Shown here piece by piece: positions 32,400 to 42,494 of a DNA stretch of 64,000 nt. Where the stretch lies: contig NZ_SJPU01000001.1 in NCBI RefSeq assembly GCF_007860105.1, forward strand, positions 1,190,090 to 1,254,089, read 5' to 3'. This DNA comes from Allorhodopirellula heiligendammensis. GTDB lineage: Bacteria > Planctomycetota > Planctomycetia > Pirellulales > Pirellulaceae. Made by a program: the position numbers and the translations under genes. Each line of letters opens with the position of its first letter. The first letter of the stretch is position 1. The notes under the pieces are model-generated. The model saw nothing but the letters and a program-made list of their open reading frames with translations. It had not been told where the DNA came from and did not search any database.

Positions 32400-34244
32400 A
32401 TGAAGTCACGAAGGAGTCGCGTCTGGACTGCTGCCCCGGTAACGGTGCTGCTGCTATTCCTGACTGGCCCGGGATTTAATTTTTGGCCGCTAGCGTTCAT
32501 CGCGCTCGCCCCCCTCGTCAACTTGGCCCGCTCATCCATCACCGGTGGGCGTGTGGCGGTTTACGGATCGTTCTTTGTGTATTACCTGGTGTCGCTCCAG
32601 GGACTTCGCTACGCGCATCCGCTAATGCTGTTTCCGCTCCTGGCGATGGCCGCGTATCTGGCGATTTATCCTCTGCTTTTCTTCGTCATGCTGCGGCGTT
32701 GGTTCCATTCGTCTGCTCAAAACAACGATCTGGCTGCGAAAGCATGCTGCGCTGGAATCTGGATGCCACTGGCGTACGTTCCTTTTGTCCTGATCGCGGC
32801 GGTGTTATGGGTTGGCGGTGAGTGGGTTCGGAATTATTTCGCCACAGGCATCTCCGTGTTGATGCTAGGCCATTCACTCACAGCCATGCCGTCAGCGACG
32901 ATGATCCAGATCGCGGATCTCTGTGGGACGTACGGGGTGAGTTTTCTGCTGGTGTTAACGAGCGTGGCGGTCGCGGACGCGTGGCAATGGTTCGCACAGC
33001 GGCGCACCGAAGCGCACGAGGAAAAGCTAGCGGCCAAGTGCGTCCAGATTGGTAAGGCCTGGCAAACCTCTGTGCCCATTGCTGTCCTTGCAGTCGCTGC
33101 CTCGTACACATACGGAGCTTCATCGCTCCGGTTTGAAACGATCGCCTCGAACACGACGCTGATGCTGATCGGCCGCGACGAGCAGACGGAATACCAGCAG
33201 GACTTGGCCCGTGAACAGGAGATTTTTTCGGCGTTTGCTCGTCAAACGATCGCGGCGGTGTCGGCCAGTACGCAACCCATTGCCGCTGTTGTGTGGCCGG
33301 AATCGATGCTTTCAGGTGGCCAGCCTTGGTATATCGCCGAAGCGGACCTCGAAGTACCTGCCGAACTGGCACAAGGCGGACAAGGTCGACGACTGACCGT
33401 CGATCAGTTGCGTCAAATCATCACGGAGTCACAAGATGACTTTGTCGGCCGCAACGAGAATCTCCAGGCGGCCATGTCCCACGGTACTCCGTTTCCACCT
33501 CCGGCCATCGTTGGTGGTTGCGGAATTGTGAAGTACGGTCCTACCGCCAAGCAGTTCAGCGGGATTGTGTTGGTCGATCCTGACGGGCAGGTCCGCAGCA
33601 CCTACGCCAAAAACCACCTGGTCATGTTTGGTGAGTACATCCCATTGATCAAATCAATCCCAGGACTCAAAGAGTTTGTGCCAGCTGGCTTAGGACTTGA
33701 TGCCGGCACGGATCCTGCAGTCTTCGAGATCGGGACCCTCCGGGCATTGCCAAACCTATGCATCGAAACTGCAGTGGAACGGATTTCGGTGAATCACATG
33801 CGAGCCATTTTAGACCGCGATCCCAACCTTCTACCGCAAGTAATTCTCACGCTGACGAACGACGCCTGGTTTGACAACTCAGCTGTCATTGAGCACCACC
33901 TGCGCTGCGCACAAATGGTTGCGATTGGATGTAGACGCCCGATCTTATCGGCCGCCAATGGAGGCCCAACGGCGTGGATAGACAGCAGCGGGAGAATCGT
34001 CGAGCAGTTACCAGCGGGCACGGCTGGGGAAATTGTTGCCCAGCCAGAGATCGACACTCGTGTGAGTCCCTATGTTCGCTATGGAGCATTGCCCGCCAGC
34101 CTGATGGGGATGGTTTGGCTTGTCGCCTCGTTTTCATGCCTGTCGCAAAGCATCTACGATCGGTACCGTGGCAGCTTGGATCGCGGGGGCGAGGCCGGCA
34201 ACAATTCCGACGAGCAAGGAAACGAGGCCACCCGTCAACGCTAA
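32400..34244 (+). CDS. lnt: Apolipoprotein N-acyltransferase
   Basis: The 614-residue integral membrane enzyme adds the third acyl chain to lipoproteins. The N-terminal half has six or more membrane helices ([41 protein letters not shown]). The periplasmic nitrilase-like domain carries the triad E301 (VWPESML), K404 ([15 protein letters not shown]) and C454 ([10 protein letters not shown]). The distance from E301 to K404 is larger than in E. coli, because of a roughly 30-residue insert ([18 protein letters not shown]). A last helix ([18 protein letters not shown]) is followed by a polar tail. That tail is read antisense through the 3' end of the convergent permease gene, an overlap of 111 bases. 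Confidence 0.9.
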
Positions 34245-35267
34245 GCCAAGCGATGGACGAAACGCAATCGTGGCACCTTCCGCCCCGATTGCAAACCCAC
34301 CCAAGCTCAATGCGAGCAATGCGGCTGCTGTGCCCAGCACCCCACCGACGACGCACAGGACGGTACTCTCAGCCAACACCAGTCGCATCGCGCGAACGGG
34401 GCGCACGCCAATTGTCTGCAATACCGCGTATTCCTTGATTCTGTCTTGTACGCTCATCACTGTTGTTGTCGCGACGAGAGACAGCACAAGCGCCACGCAC
34501 GCGTAACCTAACCAGTGTGCGAACCCGATGAGATCGACCAAGTCTGAAAGCGTATTGGCTTGAAAGGCGCCTTTTCGTCGCGTCTTGGTCGCCACGGTGC
34601 CCGCTCGCAATGCGGAGTCAATTTCCGTCGCGACTTGATCAGGGTCGGCGTCTTCGCTCAACAAAACTTCATGTTGCGTTACCAGCCCCGCGGCATCGAG
34701 CCCGCGGGTGTACTGCAAGAACAGGAGGCTCGTGTAGATCAGGTTCTCTTCTGATGGCACGGTCGACTCGAAAATACCTGCAACCTTGACTGAAACATCG
34801 CCAATTGAGAACTGGTCACCAACCGAAAGCCCACGTCGTTGGGCGACATTGCGACCGACAATCGCGGCGTCGCGCTGCGAGGCAAACTGCTGCCATGACC
34901 CACTGGTGAGCTTGATCGGACGAGTCTTCTGAATCTGCTCCGGATCGGCACCATTGAACACGACAATATCAAGACTGGCGCGGCAGTTGTTAGTCCAGAC
35001 TTGAATGGGCATTACCTCCTTCACCCCCGCCACATCCCTGATCTTGTTTGCGTAGTCCTCCGGTAGGCGGCTACTCGTCGGACAGAAACGGTTTTCCTGA
35101 AAAACGATTAGACTGCGATTCGCGTCCGCGCCCGCTGTTAGCCGGTGCAAGCCCTCCTGCACTGAGCCGACGAAACAAAATACAAACATTGCTACTGCGG
35201 CGCCTGATACGGTCAGGAGCGTGCGAGTGCGATGGCGCCAAAGCGTTTTGAAGACGTAGGTGAACAT
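34134..35267 (-). CDS. FtsX/MacB-like ABC transporter permease (second permease of the exporter operon)
   Basis: The 377-residue protein has one N-terminal membrane helix ([19 protein letters not shown]), a large extracytoplasmic domain of about 200 residues and three C-terminal helices. The FtsX core shows [23 protein letters not shown], and the protein ends in [17 protein letters not shown], the standard C-terminus. Permease genes of this class pair with LolD/MacB-type ATPases. It is last in a five-gene minus-strand operon, 73 bases after the ATPase. Its 3' end overlaps the convergent lnt gene. Confidence 0.9.
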
Positions 35268-35340
35268 GAGATCGGGAGCGGCGGTAGAGGAGGAGGCACG
35301 GGAGCAGCATTAATTCAATTGCGTCGTGTACAGTTGCTTG

Positions 35341-36057
35341 CTAATGGATGGGTTCTAACTTGGAATCAGACGCCGGCGACGCTCCCCGGGGCAGAAACTT
35401 TCCGCGGTCGAGTACCAACTGACGAGACGCAATGCTCGCCACGTCTTGGTCATGAGTAACCATCAACAGCGTGATATCGAGCTCCTGGTTCAATCGTTGC
35501 AATAGCACTTGAACTTGCTCGCTGGTCTCGGTGTCGAGGCTACCGGTGGGTTCATCAGCGACAACGACCTTCGGATGCGCCACAATAGCGCGGGCAATAC
35601 CAACTCGCTGCTCCTGGCCACCGGAGAGTTGCCGTGGATAGTGGTCGGCCCGATCACTCAAACCCACCGCGTCAAGTGCGAGTTCGACACGTTGCCGCCG
35701 CAGAGTTGACGTTAGCTTTAACAGCAGTGTCGGCAGCTCCACATTTTCGTAGGCTGTCAGCACGGGAATCAGATTATGAGTCTGAAAGATATAACCAAGA
35801 TTTGCTGCACGCCAATCAGCAAGTTTGCTACGCGACAACTTAGTCACCTCCGTTCCGTCGACGGTGATTGACCCCGCATCCGGGCGGTCAATCCCGCTGA
35901 CAAGGTTTAGCAACGTACTCTTGCCGGTGCCGCTAGGACCCATCAATGAAACGAACTCGCTCGCTTCAATGTCCAGATCAATGTTGTCGAGCGGCGTGAT
36001 CGTCTCCTCGCCTTTTCGGAAACTTTTGCTGACGCCGCGAAGTTCTACCAATGCCAT
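35341..36057 (-). CDS. ABC transporter ATPase (LolD/MacB type)
   Basis: The 238-residue ATPase has Walker [10 protein letters not shown] (40-48), signature [15 protein letters not shown], Walker [13 protein letters not shown] and the switch His in LLMVTHD. These match the LolD/MacB subfamily that powers FtsX-like permeases. ATG follows the TAA of the adaptor gene directly (TAAATG), so translation is coupled. It would drive both permeases of the operon. Confidence 0.94.
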
Positions 36058-37617
36058 TTAATTCACTCCTAACCTTGGATCGTCCCCGGACACGTTCACC
36101 GGGCTTTCTGGTGTGAGACTTCCCACCCCTGAGGTAATCAATTTGTCGGTAACCTGCAGACCGGCTTTGATTTCAATGAGCCCGTCGGCGGTTTCACTTC
36201 CCACTTCGACGATACGCTGTTGCGCGCTTTCGTTGGCGTCAACGATCCAAACAAAAGCCTCTGCATCACTCTCCTGAAGGAGCGAGACGGGTACGAATAG
36301 CCGCTCGCTCATCGTATCCTCATCGGCACCTGATTCAGTCAGCGGTGCCATGAAGGTTGCCGTGACCAGCATTTCGGGACTGACAGTGATTGGAGGATCG
36401 ATCAACTCCACTTTCACCTCAAGTGTATTTTTCTGGATGTTTGCCGAGCTCGTTGATTGCAACACACGGCCGGCAATGATGTTTTTGCTCGATGCGGTTT
36501 CTATCTCTACCTCTTGGCCCCGCATGACCAATGGCACATCCTCCAGTCGAACGTCGACTCGCACCTGAAGCCGACTGGGCTCGTACATTTCGACCACCGT
36601 GCTGGAGCTCTGCCCGGCCACAGAATCGAGTCCCATCACGCGCGTCCCAGGTGCAGCCACCAGACTCAATACTCGTCCACTGACCGGAGCTAAGACCACG
36701 TTTCGCCGTAAAGCGAGTTCTGCCTGTCGAACTTTCAGAGCAGCTTCTTTGACGAGCGCCTCGGCAGATTCGACCTTCGCTTTCGCTGCAGCGACCTGTC
36801 GATTTTCCTCGATCAGTAATTCCAATTGTCGCTCGAGTGCGTCGACCTTGTCCGTCAAGGCGTCAACCTCACGCTGCAAGTTGGGTTGGCGGTCTCGCAG
36901 CTCCAGGAGATCAGCCTTCGCAGACGCGTAATCACTCTCAGACAAGGCGATGACACGATCGGAGACGGCGCCCTTTGCGGAGCGTTTGCCCTCCATGCTG
37001 CTTAAGGCGTACTCTAATTTGGCCTCGGCGGAACTGATCAAAAATGGCAGCTTGGCAAGCTCTGTCTTGGCCTTCGCCAGCATACTGTGGGCGTCTGCCA
37101 ACGGAGCCTGCAGATGCACCGGATTGGCGACGCGAATCATCGCGGCGTCGAGTTCGGCCTGAGTACCGTTCAGCTCACCTTGCCGAATTGCAAGCGATGC
37201 TTTCGCTTGCTCGACGTTTAACTCGGCGTCGATGGAGATCAACCGCGCCACCGGTTCGCCCTTCTCCACGACTTGCCCCTCCACCACCAGCAATTCTTCG
37301 ATCACGCCAGGTGCGAGCGCCGCAACGCTAATCGCCGTGGGACGCGGTTCAATCCAGCCCGGTGCTTGGAACAATGGAGTTCCCGCTTGCTGAATCGTCG
37401 CGCGTTTAACAATCACAGGAATCACTGTCACGTCCTGACGAGACAATAGGCCTCGCCCAGCGGCTGCTACGAGAAGTGCTAGGAAACCCAGCAGAATGAC
37501 TGCCGGCAGCACATACCGTGTCAACCATTGACGGCGTCGAGGACGTGTCTCTTCTCGCTCACCCTGAGGTGCGCGATCGAGCGCTAATTGACTGAGATCG
37601 AGTGGGGCACTGGTCAT
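36058..37617 (-). CDS. HlyD/MacA-type periplasmic adaptor protein
   Basis: The 519-residue membrane-fusion protein has a cytosolic N-terminus and a single membrane helix (VLPAVILLGFLALLVAAAG). A split biotinyl-lipoyl-like domain lies around GVIEELLVVEGQVVEKGEPVA and VLAPVSGRVLSLVAAPGTRV. Between them is a long coiled-coil hairpin of about 170 residues, rich in Ala, Glu, Lys and Leu. A beta-barrel domain follows (VRVDVRLEDVPLVMRGQEV). It bridges the inner-membrane ABC part to the outer envelope. It starts 3 bases after the lipoprotein stop, and the ATPase start codon follows its own stop. Confidence 0.92.
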   Translation of the reverse strand: MTSAPLDLSQLALDRAPQGEREETRPRRRQWLTRYVLPAVILLGFLALLVAAAGRGLLSRQDVTVIPVIVKRATIQQAGTPLFQAPGWIEPRPTAISVAALAPGVIEELLVVEGQVVEKGEPVARLISIDAELNVEQAKASLAIRQGELNGTQAELDAAMIRVANPVHLQAPLADAHSMLAKAKTELAKLPFLISSAEAKLEYALSSMEGKRSAKGAVSDRVIALSESDYASAKADLLELRDRQPNLQREVDALTDKVDALERQLELLIEENRQVAAAKAKVESAEALVKEAALKVRQAELALRRNVVLAPVSGRVLSLVAAPGTRVMGLDSVAGQSSSTVVEMYEPSRLQVRVDVRLEDVPLVMRGQEVEIETASSKNIIAGRVLQSTSSANIQKNTLEVKVELIDPPITVSPEMLVTATFMAPLTESGADEDTMSERLFVPVSLLQESDAEAFVWIVDANESAQQRIVEVGSETADGLIEIKAGLQVTDKLITSGVGSLTPESPVNVSGDDPRLGVN

Positions 37618-37620
37618 GAC

Positions 37621-38157
37621 TTACGCACCTGGACGGACGAATACTTCGCTGGTGGCGACCGAGAGATTGCCTTGGTCGTCGCGTTTCGCCTTGCCTTTGA
37701 TCACGACGGTGGACAACTCTTTGACTCCCAACAGCTCTCGGGCATCCTGCGCGACCGGCGATCCGGATTCATCAACGATCTTGATAGTCGCGATGTTGTC
37801 TGCGACCTGGTCGGTATGACAGCAGTAGTCCCATGGTGTGGGACAGCCCTCGTCGGCGGCGCAGTACGGTACTTTGGGATCGACAATCGTGAACGCCGCT
37901 AGCCCGTCGACAAAAGGTTCCGAAGAGCCGCCGATCAACCCAACCAAGGTAACTTCTTGGCCATCCTCGGACTTCTCACGTGCTTCGCCGACCGGCATTG
38001 CTCCGGTCGGCTCCAGATCAACGATATAGGCCGATTGGGGCGCACCTGCATCAGTGTCGCCGACTGAGGCTACGTCCGAACTCTTCTGACAACCCGACGC
38101 AACGACCAGAGCCGCAGCGACGCACATACCAACACTTCGACTTAAAAACATCTTCAT
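37621..38157 (-). CDS. Lipoprotein with OB-like fold and Cys/His cluster
   Basis: The 178-residue lipoprotein has a lipobox ASGC with C23; ATG 38157 or 38151 are possible starts. The mature part has OB-fold-like strands ([37 protein letters not shown]). In the middle is [18 protein letters not shown], giving C99, C105, C112, C113 and H114, a plausible metal or redox site. It lies between permease and adaptor genes of an exporter operon and so is probably a periplasmic substrate-binding or gating part. Copper, zinc or heme handling is possible; nothing in sequence decides it. Confidence 0.82.
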
Positions 38158-38177
38158 CTCAACTCTCCAAAGGGAAA

Positions 38178-39332
38178 CTAAACAGCTTTCAAACTTGTTG
38201 CGACTTCAGCTCGCAACGCCTTCAGCGCCGGGGGTAACGCACCCAAGACGCCTAACAACAAACCAACGCCGCATCCGATGAGGATGGCAACGCTGTCGAT
38301 GCGTAAGGTGAACGCACCCATCGTGAATCGTACCGCCACGCCGTTGAGCATGGTCAGCGCTACCACACCCGATAGCAATGACCCGGCCGCCGCCAGTAAT
38401 ACGCCTTCCTGGATTAAACTGATCAAGATCGCGCGGCGGCGAAATCCAATCGCTTGCAAAGTGGCAATCTCGCGTATCCGCCCGGCCACAGCGCCGTACA
38501 TCATGTTCAACCCTGCAAAGACTCCCGCCCCGGAAACCATTACCACCACGAACCAGGCCAGGATCCGGACCGGCTTGTAGTGCTGTTGTAGCGTGGCGTA
38601 ATACTCAGTCTCACCGATCGCGTGAAGCTCCAGGTCGATGCGTTCCTTGCAGAATAGCTTGACCTCCGCCAGTGAGCCGCCGGGAGACATCAACATCGCC
38701 ACCAGACTCAAATCCTGGCGTTTCGTTGCGGTTTGAAAATCGCTGAGCTGGCACCATAACTCGGACTCGTACGCGGCACCGCCAGCGGCGAAGCGGCCAA
38801 CGATCGTCCATTGGTGTCCTTCAAACTCAAGGATGCTTCCAATGCTCATGGCATCATCACTACTGCCCAACTTCGCTGCGGCCAGTCGTCCGACCATGAC
38901 CTCCCCTTCACCAGGCCAGTTGCCATCGATGAGCTGAACGGAACGCCGCACCAAGGGCGCAGCGAGGGTCACACCACGAACCAATCCCAGTCCTTCGTCG
39001 CCAGCAGATGTCTTCACGCGAGTGCCCAGGTACAACTCAGGTGAAACATGGGTGACACCGAAGCGATCGACTACTGAGTCGAAACTCGCTGCCACGAGTG
39101 ATGGCGTTCTGGCGGCTATCGACGAGTTCTCAATGTTCTCCTCCGAGTTCACTGAGTACACCAACACCACGTTCTCGTCGCCACTGACGGACAACGATTG
39201 CTCCAGACCGCGGATAAAACCAACGACGACAAAAACTAACATCACCACCGTCGCCAGCGCGACGAGTGTCAACGTCGTTCGCACCGGGCGCCGGGCCAGA
39301 TTCCGAACTCCGTACTCCCAAGGCAGCAGCAT
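38178..39332 (-). CDS. FtsX/MacB-like ABC transporter permease (first permease of the exporter operon)
   Basis: The 384-residue protein has a first helix [19 protein letters not shown], an extracytoplasmic domain of about 220 residues and three C-terminal helices. The FtsX core shows [26 protein letters not shown], and [20 protein letters not shown] ends the protein. It is clearly related to, but not a recent duplicate of, the operon's last permease. It is the first gene of the operon, followed by the lipoprotein gene 20 bases downstream. A heterodimeric FtsX-like pair, as in LolC/LolE, is the likely architecture. Confidence 0.9.
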
Positions 39333-39714
39333 ATTAAGTGAATTTGCGTGTGTGAAATATATGGAAAATTCTGGGCGCGATGGCGACCAGATCAGGATCG
39401 CTACCAGAACACGTTGGTTGTGCGAGCGATGGAACGTGCGGCCAAACGCGTCGAATGCCAGCAGTCACCGCCTACTTGACTCCGGCTCGCATGGCCGTTG
39501 GAACAGTCATGCTGACCTTCGCAAGTAGAACGAGGAGACGTCGATCCGATTCGTATCGGCCCGCGCAGGAGACCAATCGCGCACGCCCTTCCGATGACTG
39601 GACAGTCCCAAGTTTTCTTCACGCTCGACGGATCGCTCAGCCCAAAGTGTGCCTAGTGGCAAACGACGAACCTGCGAGACGCGCTTGAGGTGAGGTCAGG
39701 CAAATCAGATCTAC
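39333..39714. promoter_or_regulatory. Intergenic region upstream of the exporter operon
   Basis: About 380 bases with no supported gene. It must carry the promoter of the minus-strand exporter operon. Small open frames on both strands here have skewed composition and no ribosome-binding sites. A short CCGAT/ATCGG hairpin is the only structure seen. Confidence 0.4.
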
Positions 39715-39748
39715 GTTCTCGCCGCGGAACTGGCCGCGATAAGAGAAC
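39715..39748 (-). terminator. Stem-loop after the Cys-rich gene
   Basis: GTTCTC/GAGAAC (39715-39720, 39743-39748) encloses CGCGG/CCGCG (39723-39727, 39734-39738) with a 6-base loop. It begins 11 bases past the stop of the minus-strand Cys-rich gene, so it probably ends that transcript. It lacks a U-tract. Confidence 0.45.
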
Positions 39749-39759
39749 TTAAAATCGAC

Positions 39760-40158
39760 TCACAGCAACCAAGATTGGTGCGATACGCGCAGCTCGCGAC
39801 CGCTGAGAAATGGTCTCGCCGAAGACGCTGGATGGTCCAGCAGATTGGCTTGTCGACGACAGAAGGTCGCGGCTACGCAATGCAGCGGCGGTTCGCCAAC
39901 GGAATACTCCATCGGACTGGATAGTTCCACGTCCGCTTCGAGCACAGCACCTTCACAAATGCAATTTTCACAGCCACAGTCATCGCTACATGGCACAGGT
40001 GCTTCTGGATCCGCCGCACATTCCGCATCGGAGCAACAACGACAAATCGCTGGCGCCGACTGCTCACTGACGCTCACATTCGCTGCACATGAGGTGCAAC
40101 GCAGTGGGCACGTCAGCAAATTGACGATCAACAGCAGGGCGATTAGGGCGGATCTCAT
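39760..40158 (-). CDS. Small secreted cysteine-rich protein
   Basis: The protein is 132 residues from ATG 40158 (ATG 40170 possible). It has a signal-like segment ALIALLLIVNLLTC; C17 could be lipidated, but the preceding residues are a poor lipobox. Twelve Cys lie between residues 17 and 68, including ICRCC and CSDDCGCENCIC. The acidic surroundings (SDAECAADPEAPVPC) recall metal-binding proteins. The rest is unremarkable. A stem-loop follows the stop, and it faces the same way as the exporter operon, 427 bases away. It is plausibly a periplasmic metal-binding or disulfide-rich protein; no family recognised. Confidence 0.55.
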   Translation of the reverse strand: MRSALIALLLIVNLLTCPLRCTSCAANVSVSEQSAPAICRCCSDAECAADPEAPVPCSDDCGCENCICEGAVLEADVELSSPMEYSVGEPPLHCVAATFCRRQANLLDHPASSARPFLSGRELRVSHQSWLL

Positions 40159-40479
40159 ACTTGCCAACATAACTCAGAAGAGCAGTGACTGCAAGTTGAA
40201 TCACGACACGTTGAATCACAATGACGGTACAACTTTGCTAAATGGCGTTCGGTGGCGATCCATCACGTGCTGCATGCCCGCTCGGAGCGGGGAGAGGTTC
40301 GTGACGTGTCTCGCTGCGGTTTCGCTCCTGGAAGCATCGTGTTAGTTTGTTGCTGCAACGAAATTTCCTATTTTTCATTTGTGGATCTCGCCGGCGGACC
40401 TAATCCACTTTCACCCATAACAAAGGCACGTGGTTTTTGCGGCCCAGACGCTGGGCGGCGAATCTTGCACAACGTTTTG
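40159..40479. promoter_or_regulatory. Divergent intergenic region before the nitrogen operon
   Basis: About 320 bases that should carry promoters for the Cys-rich gene and the plus-strand operon. A hairpin GCCCAG-ACG-CTGGGC at 40442-40456 lies 23 bases upstream of the ATG at 40480. An AT-rich stretch (about 40361-40381) precedes it. No gene is supported. Confidence 0.4.
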
Positions 40480-40992
40480 ATGCGAGCGAAAACACTCGGT
40501 CTAACGGTTTTCCTATTGTTTCAGGCGCTGCCTGTTGACGCCAAAGATCCGTCGGATCTGCCCGCAATCGCATTTAATCAAACGAGGTTTGTCGACGTCC
40601 GAGAGGGGTACGTTTCGCTCGAGTGGAATGATGTCCTCGGTAGTGAAAGCCTTCACAAGGATGGCGGCAACACCCTCGCGACCGATGCCAGCTACATGGT
40701 CTGGGATGAGCGGGGGACGGTCTACTATCGCGGCCATCTTCCCATGGCGTTTGTTTCTGGCCTGCCCGATGGTGACTATCAGTTCGATGTTGCGGTGGCA
40801 GCGCGGGACGGACAGATTCTGCGACACGCAGACGAGCCCGCCATCGTGATGGTCCGTCACTGGTCGATGCCGCAGGCAATGTCCCTTTTCACGGTTGGGC
40901 TGGTCGTTTTTCTTGCTCTGATCGCCGTCATTGTGCACGGCTCCTGTAGCTGCCGTCGATCAGTTCGCAATTCAGGAGCACCGACTGAATGA
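40480..40992 (+). CDS. Small membrane protein with fibronectin-like ectodomain
   Basis: The 170-residue protein starts at ATG 40480, where a signal peptide begins (LGLTVFLLFQALPVDA). The ectodomain of about 100 residues is beta-rich (VREGYVSLEWNDV, YMVWDERGTVYYRG, LPDGDYQFDVAVAARDGQ), like an Fn3 module. A C-terminal membrane helix (AMSLFTVGLVVFLALIAVIV) follows, then a basic tail. Its TGA overlaps the ATG of the symporter gene (ATGA), so it is very probably an accessory protein of that transporter. No family name is known to me. Confidence 0.75.
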   Translation: MRAKTLGLTVFLLFQALPVDAKDPSDLPAIAFNQTRFVDVREGYVSLEWNDVLGSESLHKDGGNTLATDASYMVWDERGTVYYRGHLPMAFVSGLPDGDYQFDVAVAARDGQILRHADEPAIVMVRHWSMPQAMSLFTVGLVVFLALIAVIVHGSCSCRRSVRNSGAPTE

Positions 40993-42494
40993 CCGTGTAT
41001 GAGGACGTTTGGATGCTCGCCGCGACTCCGATCCTCTCGCCTACGGCGGGGTACACGATGCTCGCAATCTTCAGTGTCTTGTGGATTGCATTGGGCATCT
41101 GGTGGGGACGTCGAGCCAGTACGTATGAAGGTTTCGCGGTGGCGGGACGCAACGTCGGACTCGCCCTTGGCACCGCAACCGCAGTCGCGACTTGGATCAC
41201 ATCCAACACGACAATGCTGGCTCCCCAATTCGCATTGCAACTTGGCATTTGGGGCGCCCTAGCGTATTGCACGGCGAGTTTCGGACTTTTCGCCTTCGCA
41301 CCGATGAGCGGTCGTATCCGCCAATTGATGCCTGAGGGCTATACGGCGGTCGAGTTTGTGCGCCGGCGATACGGCCTCGTCGCGACGGTGCCGTTTCTCA
41401 TCATTTCTTTATTTTACGCGATCACTTGGTTGATCTCGATGTCAATGGCGGGCGGCAAGTTGCTCGAGGTGTTGGCGGGGATTCCCTACGAGGTTGGGAT
41501 GACCGTGGTGATCACGGTATGTGTCGCTTACACACTCTTCGGTGGCATGTATGCGGTCATCGGTACTGACTTTATCCAGAGCCTGATCATTTTGATCGGG
41601 TTGGTCGTCGTCACGATTGCCGTTCTGTCGCAGGTCGAGATTGCCGATGTTCACGAGAAATTGCAAGCCGATCGACCGATGCTGCTATCGATCTTCTTTC
41701 CAGCAGCATTAATGGCTATTTTCAATAACATGCTTTTTGGGTTTGGTGAGATCTTCCACAGCAATGTTTGGTGGAGCCGAGCATTCGCAATGCGCGCAGG
41801 CGTCGGCCCCAAAGCTTACGTGTTGGGCGGTCTGCTTTGGTTGCCAATTCCCATCGTCGCAGGTTTCTTGGGCTTGGCGGCGCCGGCTCTGGGAATTGGC
41901 ATCAGCCAGCCCGATACAGTGGGGCCATTGGTCGCCGCAACATTACTCGGTGATGTCGGTGCGGTGCTCGTGTTTATCGTCGTGTTCTGCTCGTTGGCGT
42001 CGAGCATTGACTCACTACTGGCGGCGACGTCCGACCTCGTCGTCAATGATATTGCTGAGCCGCTCGTGCCGGGCAGCGTCACGCAGCGGCAGAAGCGCCT
42101 GTGGTCCGGGGTGAGCATCGTTGCCCTCGGTGGTCTGGCCTGGGCGGTGGCACTGCCCAATGTGTCTGACTTGGCGACTGTGCTGTTCTTTGCCGGGCCA
42201 CTTGTGGGTAGCTGCATTTGGCCGATCGTCGGAGGACTGTACTATCGACGTCCTGGTCCCATCGCTGCAGCCTCCGCAATGGTTGCTGGCAGCCTGATCG
42301 GACTTGCGGCTTATTTCTTGATAGGTTGGATGGTGGCGTCGCTTGTCGGTGCAGCGGTTTCCGGAATCGTATTTGCAGTCCTGGTTTGGCTGCGGCCCAA
42401 TGGCTACGATTTTAAGTTGTTATCTGCCCCCGCTACGCGACCCCAAGACGTCGCTGACGATGGCAGCTCATCTGTTTCTCCAGCGGGAGCGTGA
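40989..42494 (+). CDS. Sodium:solute symporter (SSS family)
   Basis: The 501-residue protein has about 13 membrane helices. The SSS hallmarks are the N-terminal RRASTYEGFAVAGRNVGL followed by TATAVATWITSNT, and the central GGMYAVIGTDFIQSLIILIGL. CSLASSIDSLLAATSDLVVNDI near residue 330-350 is the Na+-site helix. The sequence is closest in feel to urea, purine or pantothenate carriers, but the substrate cannot be assigned. The downstream amidohydrolase, carbamoyltransferase and asparagine synthetase make a nitrogen compound such as a ureide or urea likely. Confidence 0.9.
   Translation: MTVYEDVWMLAATPILSPTAGYTMLAIFSVLWIALGIWWGRRASTYEGFAVAGRNVGLALGTATAVATWITSNTTMLAPQFALQLGIWGALAYCTASFGLFAFAPMSGRIRQLMPEGYTAVEFVRRRYGLVATVPFLIISLFYAITWLISMSMAGGKLLEVLAGIPYEVGMTVVITVCVAYTLFGGMYAVIGTDFIQSLIILIGLVVVTIAVLSQVEIADVHEKLQADRPMLLSIFFPAALMAIFNNMLFGFGEIFHSNVWWSRAFAMRAGVGPKAYVLGGLLWLPIPIVAGFLGLAAPALGIGISQPDTVGPLVAATLLGDVGAVLVFIVVFCSLASSIDSLLAATSDLVVNDIAEPLVPGSVTQRQKRLWSGVSIVALGGLAWAVALPNVSDLATVLFFAGPLVGSCIWPIVGGLYYRRPGPIAAASAMVAGSLIGLAAYFLIGWMVASLVGAAVSGIVFAVLVWLRPNGYDFKLLSAPATRPQDVADDGSSSVSPAGA

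Follow-up and report, generated by a model that had tools for sequence, protein, structure and literature searches.

The locus studied here raises the question of which substrate an apparently undescribed combination of exporter genes carries across the cell envelope. It lies at positions 34134..39332 of a 64,000-nucleotide stretch of Allorhodopirellula heiligendammensis DNA (contig NZ_SJPU01000001.1, positions 1,190,090 to 1,254,089), called the window throughout the paper. An earlier note, made from the sequence alone, had described five genes in the order permease-lipoprotein-adaptor-ATPase-permease and had considered a tripartite exporter with metal-dependent gating or an exporter of lipoproteins or metals. 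In bacteria with an outer membrane, metal efflux spanning the whole envelope is attributed mainly to resistance-nodulation-division (RND) pumps. The system described here is real, conserved and apparently uncharacterised. We consider it probable that it exports thiophilic metal ions across the envelope as a MacB-type ATP-binding cassette (ABC) system, in which a heteromeric permease is combined with a predicted metal-binding lipoprotein, and that it works in the manner of CusCBA and CzcCBA but is driven by ATP. Judged by gene context and residue conservation, on which it rests, this appears to be the best supported of the readings weighed below.

All five open reading frames are located on the minus strand of the window, which belongs to a 7.18-Mb genome, and were found open at the positions given in the earlier note. 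PermA (38178..39332) encodes the first MacB/FtsX-type permease, with four hydrophobic segments. It is followed after 20 bases by LipB (37621..38157), a lipoprotein with the lipobox cysteine C23 and a Cys4 motif, after 3 bases by Adapt (36058..37617), a periplasmic adaptor of the HlyD/RND_mfp family with an N-terminal membrane segment, after 0 bases by ATP (35341..36057), a LolD/MacB-like ABC ATPase, and after 73 bases by PermE (34134..35267), the second MacB/FtsX-type permease, also with four hydrophobic segments. Both permeases scored above the Pfam cutoffs for MacB_PCD and FtsX, which places them in the MacB/FtsX (Type VII) ABC superfamily. Adapt scored above the cutoffs for HlyD_3 (Pfam) and TIGR01730 RND_mfp (NCBIfam), and an adaptor of the HlyD/MacA kind is thus encoded in the same operon, as expected for a MacAB-TolC-like system. 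ATP matched ABC_tran; its top NCBIfam model was LolD (TIGR02211), with 223.5 bits versus a cutoff of 307.8. The permeases reached 49.1 and 12.6 bits with the LolCE model TIGR02212 (cutoff 362). For the MacB equivalog NF007826 (cutoff 966) 201 bits were obtained with ATP and 21 and 27 bits with the permeases, the ATPase being a separate gene in this set. An RND permease of TIGR00914 was not found in the operon, the pump subunits being of the FtsX/MacB type. In a search of the PDB sequences MacB and MacA were the top matches of the set. LipB matched no family in Pfam (E up to 1) or NCBIfam (E up to 0.1). A promoter and terminator scan of positions 33900-40400 yielded fewer matches than the mean of the shuffled controls.

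In order to follow the set through the planctomycetes, loci were fetched and not drawn at random. The survey comprised 15 LipB loci from a genome collection, 40 stretches chosen from the score list of the order, 20 of the 38 places of a leader gene (CysR, described below) and 20 LipB places from a phylum sample. The 3.5-kb loci L028-L043 were inspected as well but do not enter the counts for 77 loci. Sets were called complete when all five genes lay on one strand within 6 kb. Counting solo paralogues, LipB relatives occurred in 109 of 196 genomes from the order, and the phylum sample had them in 75 of its 246 genomes. The complete set was present at 54 of the 77 distinct LipB loci fetched with enough context across the phylum, which is more than chance and confirms the five-gene observation. 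Three gene orders were found, PermA-LipB-Adapt-ATP-PermE in 31 sets (class A, the order of the window), LipB-PermA-Adapt-ATP-PermE in 11 (class B) and Adapt-ATP-PermE-PermA-LipB in 12 (class C), the last all outside the taxonomic class of the window. The order varied but the content remained constant, which argues for a joint function of the five genes. The remaining 23 loci comprised 20 solo paralogues, L016, cut by a contig end, and L144 and L145 without the set. A core profile of PermE detected 58 places in 50 of the 196 genomes, and at 54 of these LipB was found within 6 kb on the same strand when compared with the best 67 LipB matches. The four other places (two in G014, and G026 and G182) may be explained by contig breaks; each of these genomes has an unpaired LipB on another contig. 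In a FastTree phylogeny that included seven control permeases (six genes), the 54 PermA and the 54 PermE sequences each formed a clade of their own, with support of 0.96 and 0.999. One member of each was found per operon, as in LolCDE. The permease therefore looks like an old heteromer, and the LolCE-like heteromeric pair postulated in the earlier note is supported. A LipB scan of the genome collection, which detects close relatives only, gave 15 loci, all titled planctomycetes. With PermE the plasmid collection yielded 11 weak FtsX matches with 20-27% identity, all from proteobacteria, and with one class C LipB no match.

Cysteines were counted by alignment column in the 54 complete sets plus the window (n=55). 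In LipB, C99, C105, C112, C113 and H114 stand where the earlier note had put them, and the stretch from C99 to C113 (37819..37863, minus strand) reads C-x5-C-x2-P-W-D-Y-C-C. The lipobox cysteine C23, C112 and C113 were each conserved in 55/55 sequences, C105 in 42/55 and C99 in 37/55, so that the lack of conservation in orthologues, which the note had named as fatal to its proposal, did not occur. Within class A, C99 and C105 were each present in 29 of 31 sequences, and the exceptions L080 and L081 still have three cysteines. All 12 class C proteins show, judged by eye, a cysteine 5-8 residues before the second one, followed by x2-P-W-D-Y/F-C-C. In class B, cysteines at columns 108 and 121 plus the Cys-Cys pair were found in all 9 sequences aligned. 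Position 114 is histidine in only 3 of 38 operon-type orthologues, and H114 was consequently rejected as a ligand. A second group of conserved cysteines, beyond the earlier note and a new observation, is located in PermE. There C62 and C95 (34983..35084, minus strand), in the motifs FCPxxSxLP and NNCRASLD, form a near-invariant periplasmic pair conserved in 54/55 proteins; in the sole exception, L012, the contig breaks off immediately ahead of the first cysteine. The pair lies between hydrophobic segments one and two, the periplasmic part in the MacB topology. Cysteines at these columns were found in none of the seven control FtsX permeases (six genes) and in none of the 54 PermA proteins.

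A link to metal efflux came from a gene which the five-gene description had not included. CysR (39760..40170, minus strand), located 427 bases upstream of PermA, encodes an exported Cys-rich protein of 136 amino acids with an N-terminal hydrophobic stretch and without a match in Pfam or NCBIfam. It was found beside 27 of the 54 complete sets, so that roughly every second locus has it as a sixth gene, and it leads the set in the window. Its profile was built from 22 sequences of ABC loci only, in which C21, C25, C45, C46 and C72 are invariant. A search with this profile gave 38 places in 31 of 117 genomes. Twenty places were fetched, one of which (L125) is another ABC set. At 17 of the other 19 an RND gene lies directly downstream of CysR (two of the 17 cut by contig ends); the two without are L114, at a contig end, and L110, among the weakest matches, which adjoins a radical SAM gene. 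Four RND proteins were scanned and assigned to the CusA/CzcA family with 1129-1245 bits (cutoff 701). Six of the 18 further places are ABC sets already read, the window included, 11 sit 1.3-1.8 kb upstream of a same-strand LipB match as judged from coordinates only, and G074 could not be placed. At L115 and L116 the ABC set and the CysR-RND set are divergent neighbors. Since a conserved ABC system shares its leader gene with RND pumps, a second, ATP-driven solution to metal efflux is suggested.

CysR-led CusA/CzcA-type RND operons of planctomycetes were found at L106-L109, L111-L113 and L115-L124. Of the RND proteins encoded behind CysR, 16 were aligned; 15 contain DFGxxVDSS, with L121 differing. 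The VDSS motif is unusual; in that segment the top RND protein of the window's genome has VDGA. This genome encodes three CusA/CzcA-family RND proteins above the cutoff, and none of the three is accompanied by a CysR match. At L010 and L130 an HMA gene sits between CysR and PermA. For the 427-base gap of the window a relict HMA gene was considered and rejected, as a three-frame translation inspected by eye showed no recognisable HMA frame.

HMA genes and genes for TolC-like channels were enriched around the loci. The 546 kb surrounding complete sets contained 12 HMA genes and the 128 kb surrounding the other LipB loci 6, versus 2 in 511 kb of further flank. For outer-membrane factors the numbers were 17 in 546 kb around complete sets versus 5 in 511 kb of further flank. 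A channel gene was present in the fetched locus of 21 of the 54 sets; in the window's genome an outer-membrane factor is encoded only elsewhere, the nearest on the contig about 147 kb past the end of the window. Adaptor and channel argue for export. L056 reads as a whole metal-resistance island: besides the ABC set and a channel it encodes two HMA proteins, a P-type ATPase and a fragment of the Cation_efflux family. The P-type ATPases of L056, near the ABC set, and of L113, a CysR-RND locus, both scored above the Cd-type cutoff, while with the Cu-type model (cutoff 397) L056 remained below (382.6) and L113 just above it (397.6). The top NCBIfam model of the L019 channel, far below its cutoff, was IhpA, a divalent metal exporter. 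Among RND motifs, we take DFG to be divalent-type and DAAIV to be CusA-type. Overall, this context leans weakly to Zn/Cd/Pb, which are slightly favored over Cu/Ag as candidate metals.

How such a pump might work can be sketched by analogy with its relatives. MacB and its homologues are thought to act by mechanotransmission together with an adaptor and TolC, not by transport of a substrate across the inner membrane (PMC5985334), and LolCE is the heterodimeric member of the family (PMC8277102). PermA and PermE would accordingly form a LolCE-like heteromeric MacB-type permease, presumably of one PermA, one PermE and two ATP subunits, which the adaptor would join to a TolC/CzcC-like outer-membrane channel. 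The gene for such a channel is a neighbor of the set in some species, whereas in the window's genome it lies elsewhere. In the periplasm, LipB with its Cys4 or equivalent site may bind a thiophilic metal ion. It may then pass the ion to C62/C95 of PermE, from where ATP-driven motion of the MacB type would push it via the adaptor into the channel. CysR, and HMA proteins in some species, could serve as further periplasmic metal binders. We see an even chance that the Planctomycetota possess in this way an ATP-driven counterpart of CusCBA/CzcCBA, that is, a MacB-type ABC heteromer in which one permease has a built-in cysteine site and receives metal from a Cys4 lipoprotein, and which shares its Cys-rich leader with RND metal pumps. 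If true, no tripartite pump of the MacB family would, to our knowledge, have been described for metal ions before it.

We are conscious of several points which weigh against this picture. Metal binding, hand-over, direction and identity of the metal are all deduced from sequence data. The conserved cysteines may instead form disulfides, C99 and C105 were found in 0/11 class B LipB proteins, and LipB, taken to be OB-like in the earlier note, could not be connected to a fold, its comparison with PDB sequences giving three chance-level matches only (best E 0.52). Genes beside LipB served as seeds for the HMA and channel profiles, which somewhat favored the enrichment reported above, and 42 of 54 complete sets are without a same-strand HMA gene within 6 kb. 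CysR does not adjoin 27 of the 54 sets, and the flanks in the window itself are not metal genes. Finally, with three CusA/CzcA-family RND genes already present in the window's genome, the role of the ABC set may be a special one.

These points have to be seen together with what other explanations offer. In one of them the exporter carries an organic, metal-related or thiol substrate such as a metallophore, haem, a metal-thiol complex or a peptide, and the cysteines form disulfides or a redox relay. Tripartite MacB-type pumps are known to transport organic cargo, for instance pyoverdine, dispersin and glycolipids (PMC5985334). For an Anabaena paralogue a connection with iron metabolism is reported (PMC8277102), and L056 contains a thioredoxin-like gene. 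However, CysR, shared with RND metal pumps, and the HMA neighbors point to ions rather than to an organic substrate, and no recurrence of biosynthesis genes beside the set was noticed among the neighbors, not every one of which was classified; we regard such a substrate as possible but unlikely. The domain matches alone would also fit a conventional MacAB-type exporter of drugs or peptides whose cysteines are incidental, a view hardly credible in the light of near-invariant cysteines in two subunits and of the metal-pump context. Rather improbable appears a Lol- or Aat-like lipoprotein exporter with LipB as cargo taken to the cell surface and no part of the pump, despite the LolCE/LolD-like permease pair and ATPase. 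The AatPABCD system, which exports an acylated protein, combines a MacB/Lol-like ABC transporter with an adaptor, TolC and an Lnt-like enzyme (PMC7943197), and a gene similar to apolipoprotein N-acyltransferase (LNT_N, CN_hydrolase; 32400-34244, plus strand) is located convergently to PermE in the window, their 3' ends overlapping by 111 bases. But an Lnt homologue was found in 0/107 other loci scanned, LipB paralogues occur without an exporter at 20 solo loci, and lipoprotein export gives neither the PermE cysteines nor the CysR link a role. This neighbor was rejected as an Aat-like acyltransferase, and the set was not assigned to the AatPABCD type.

Metal uptake or sensing, which we judge very improbable, is prompted by ZrgABCDE, a system for acquiring zinc in which an ABC permease and ATPase are accompanied by a DUF3299 protein and by a protein predicted to bind zinc (PMC9817125). 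Beside the second LipB of the window's genome an ABC pair is encoded, together with a His-rich lipoprotein that matches ZrgA weakly, below the cutoff. On the other hand, the adaptor (54/54 complete sets, by definition) and the channel gene (21/54 fetched loci) are export parts, and CysR is shared with efflux RND genes. In LipB as well as in DUF3299 (ZrgE) an OB-like strand pattern precedes a Cys-Cys, but homology between the two was not supported, since the hhalign probability of 0.6% (score 15.7) was within the range of 20 column shuffles (up to 3.5%, score 20.9; reversals 1.0%). We thus retain the export of thiophilic metal ions as the preferred explanation. The metal-linked tripartite exporter of the earlier note is supported by gene context and cysteine conservation, while H114 is not supported as a ligand and the note's other option, lipoprotein export, became less likely.

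According to the note, no characterised system with this set was known. In agreement with this, no characterised exporter with all five parts was found in the open-access literature, most subscription papers being outside the scope. With MacAB-TolC it shares the four-helix MacB-type permease, the MacA-like adaptor and, probably, a TolC-like channel, but it has two permease genes, only one of them coding for the Cys pair, its ATPase is encoded separately, and a Cys lipoprotein and a metal-gene context are added. The heteromeric permease pair and the single ATPase gene recall LolCDE (LolCED2, PMC8277102), from which it differs by the adaptor and the probable channel link, the specific LipB family and scores far below the LolCE cutoff. 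A leader gene of the CysR kind, adaptor, putative CzcC/TolC-like channel and HMA neighbors connect it with CusCBA/CzcCBA, whereas its transporter is an ATP-driven ABC system, not RND, and the pump subunits are without sequence relation. DevBCA-HgdD and AatPABCD combine, as in the set, a MacB-type permease with a separate ATPase and an adaptor, and use TolC; each is described with one permease and glycolipid or acylated protein cargo, and with no Cys lipoprotein in the sources consulted. These sources likewise give one permease and organic cargo for each of the tripartite MacB-type systems MacB, PvdT, AatP, DevC and CexP (PMC5985334, PMC8277102). ZrgABCDE resembles the set in tying an ABC permease and ATPase to metal-binding envelope proteins, but is listed with a single permease gene and without an adaptor in the operon, and is reported for uptake (PMC9817125, Table 1). 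For YbbAP, a MacB-family ABC system, a heavy-metal link is suggested, but it is a poorly understood two-gene complex (PMC8277102).

If metal export by the planctomycete set is true, the cargo of MacB-type mechanotransmission pumps would widen to metal ions. PermE C62 and C95 and the one LipB motif are directly testable residues, and the two families unmatched in Pfam or NCBIfam, LipB and CysR, receive a hypothesis for their function.

Further observations concern the surroundings of the set and the solo LipB paralogues. Divergent from CysR in the window, a plus-strand gene at 40252-40992, whose product matched nothing in Pfam, extends into the beginning of a sodium:solute symporter gene (40989-42494, plus strand). 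On contig C3 of the window's genome (L044, 5106-9237) the second LipB follows genes for an ABC ATPase, an FtsX permease and the His-rich lipoprotein mentioned above, which together may be a metal system of their own. Solo LipB genes at L069, L070, L072, L073, L074 and L083 diverge from a group of genes coding for an FHA protein, a Ser/Thr kinase and mostly a sigma factor, and an HMA gene adjoins LipB in 5 of these 6 loci. Besides L044, His-rich putative lipoproteins, about 160-280 amino acids as called, were found directly beside solo LipB at 9 loci (L064-L068, L075-L078). DUF3299 proteins were present in 47 of 57 genomes of the order, with a Cys-Cys pair in 31 sequences extracted (L152, L160-L188).

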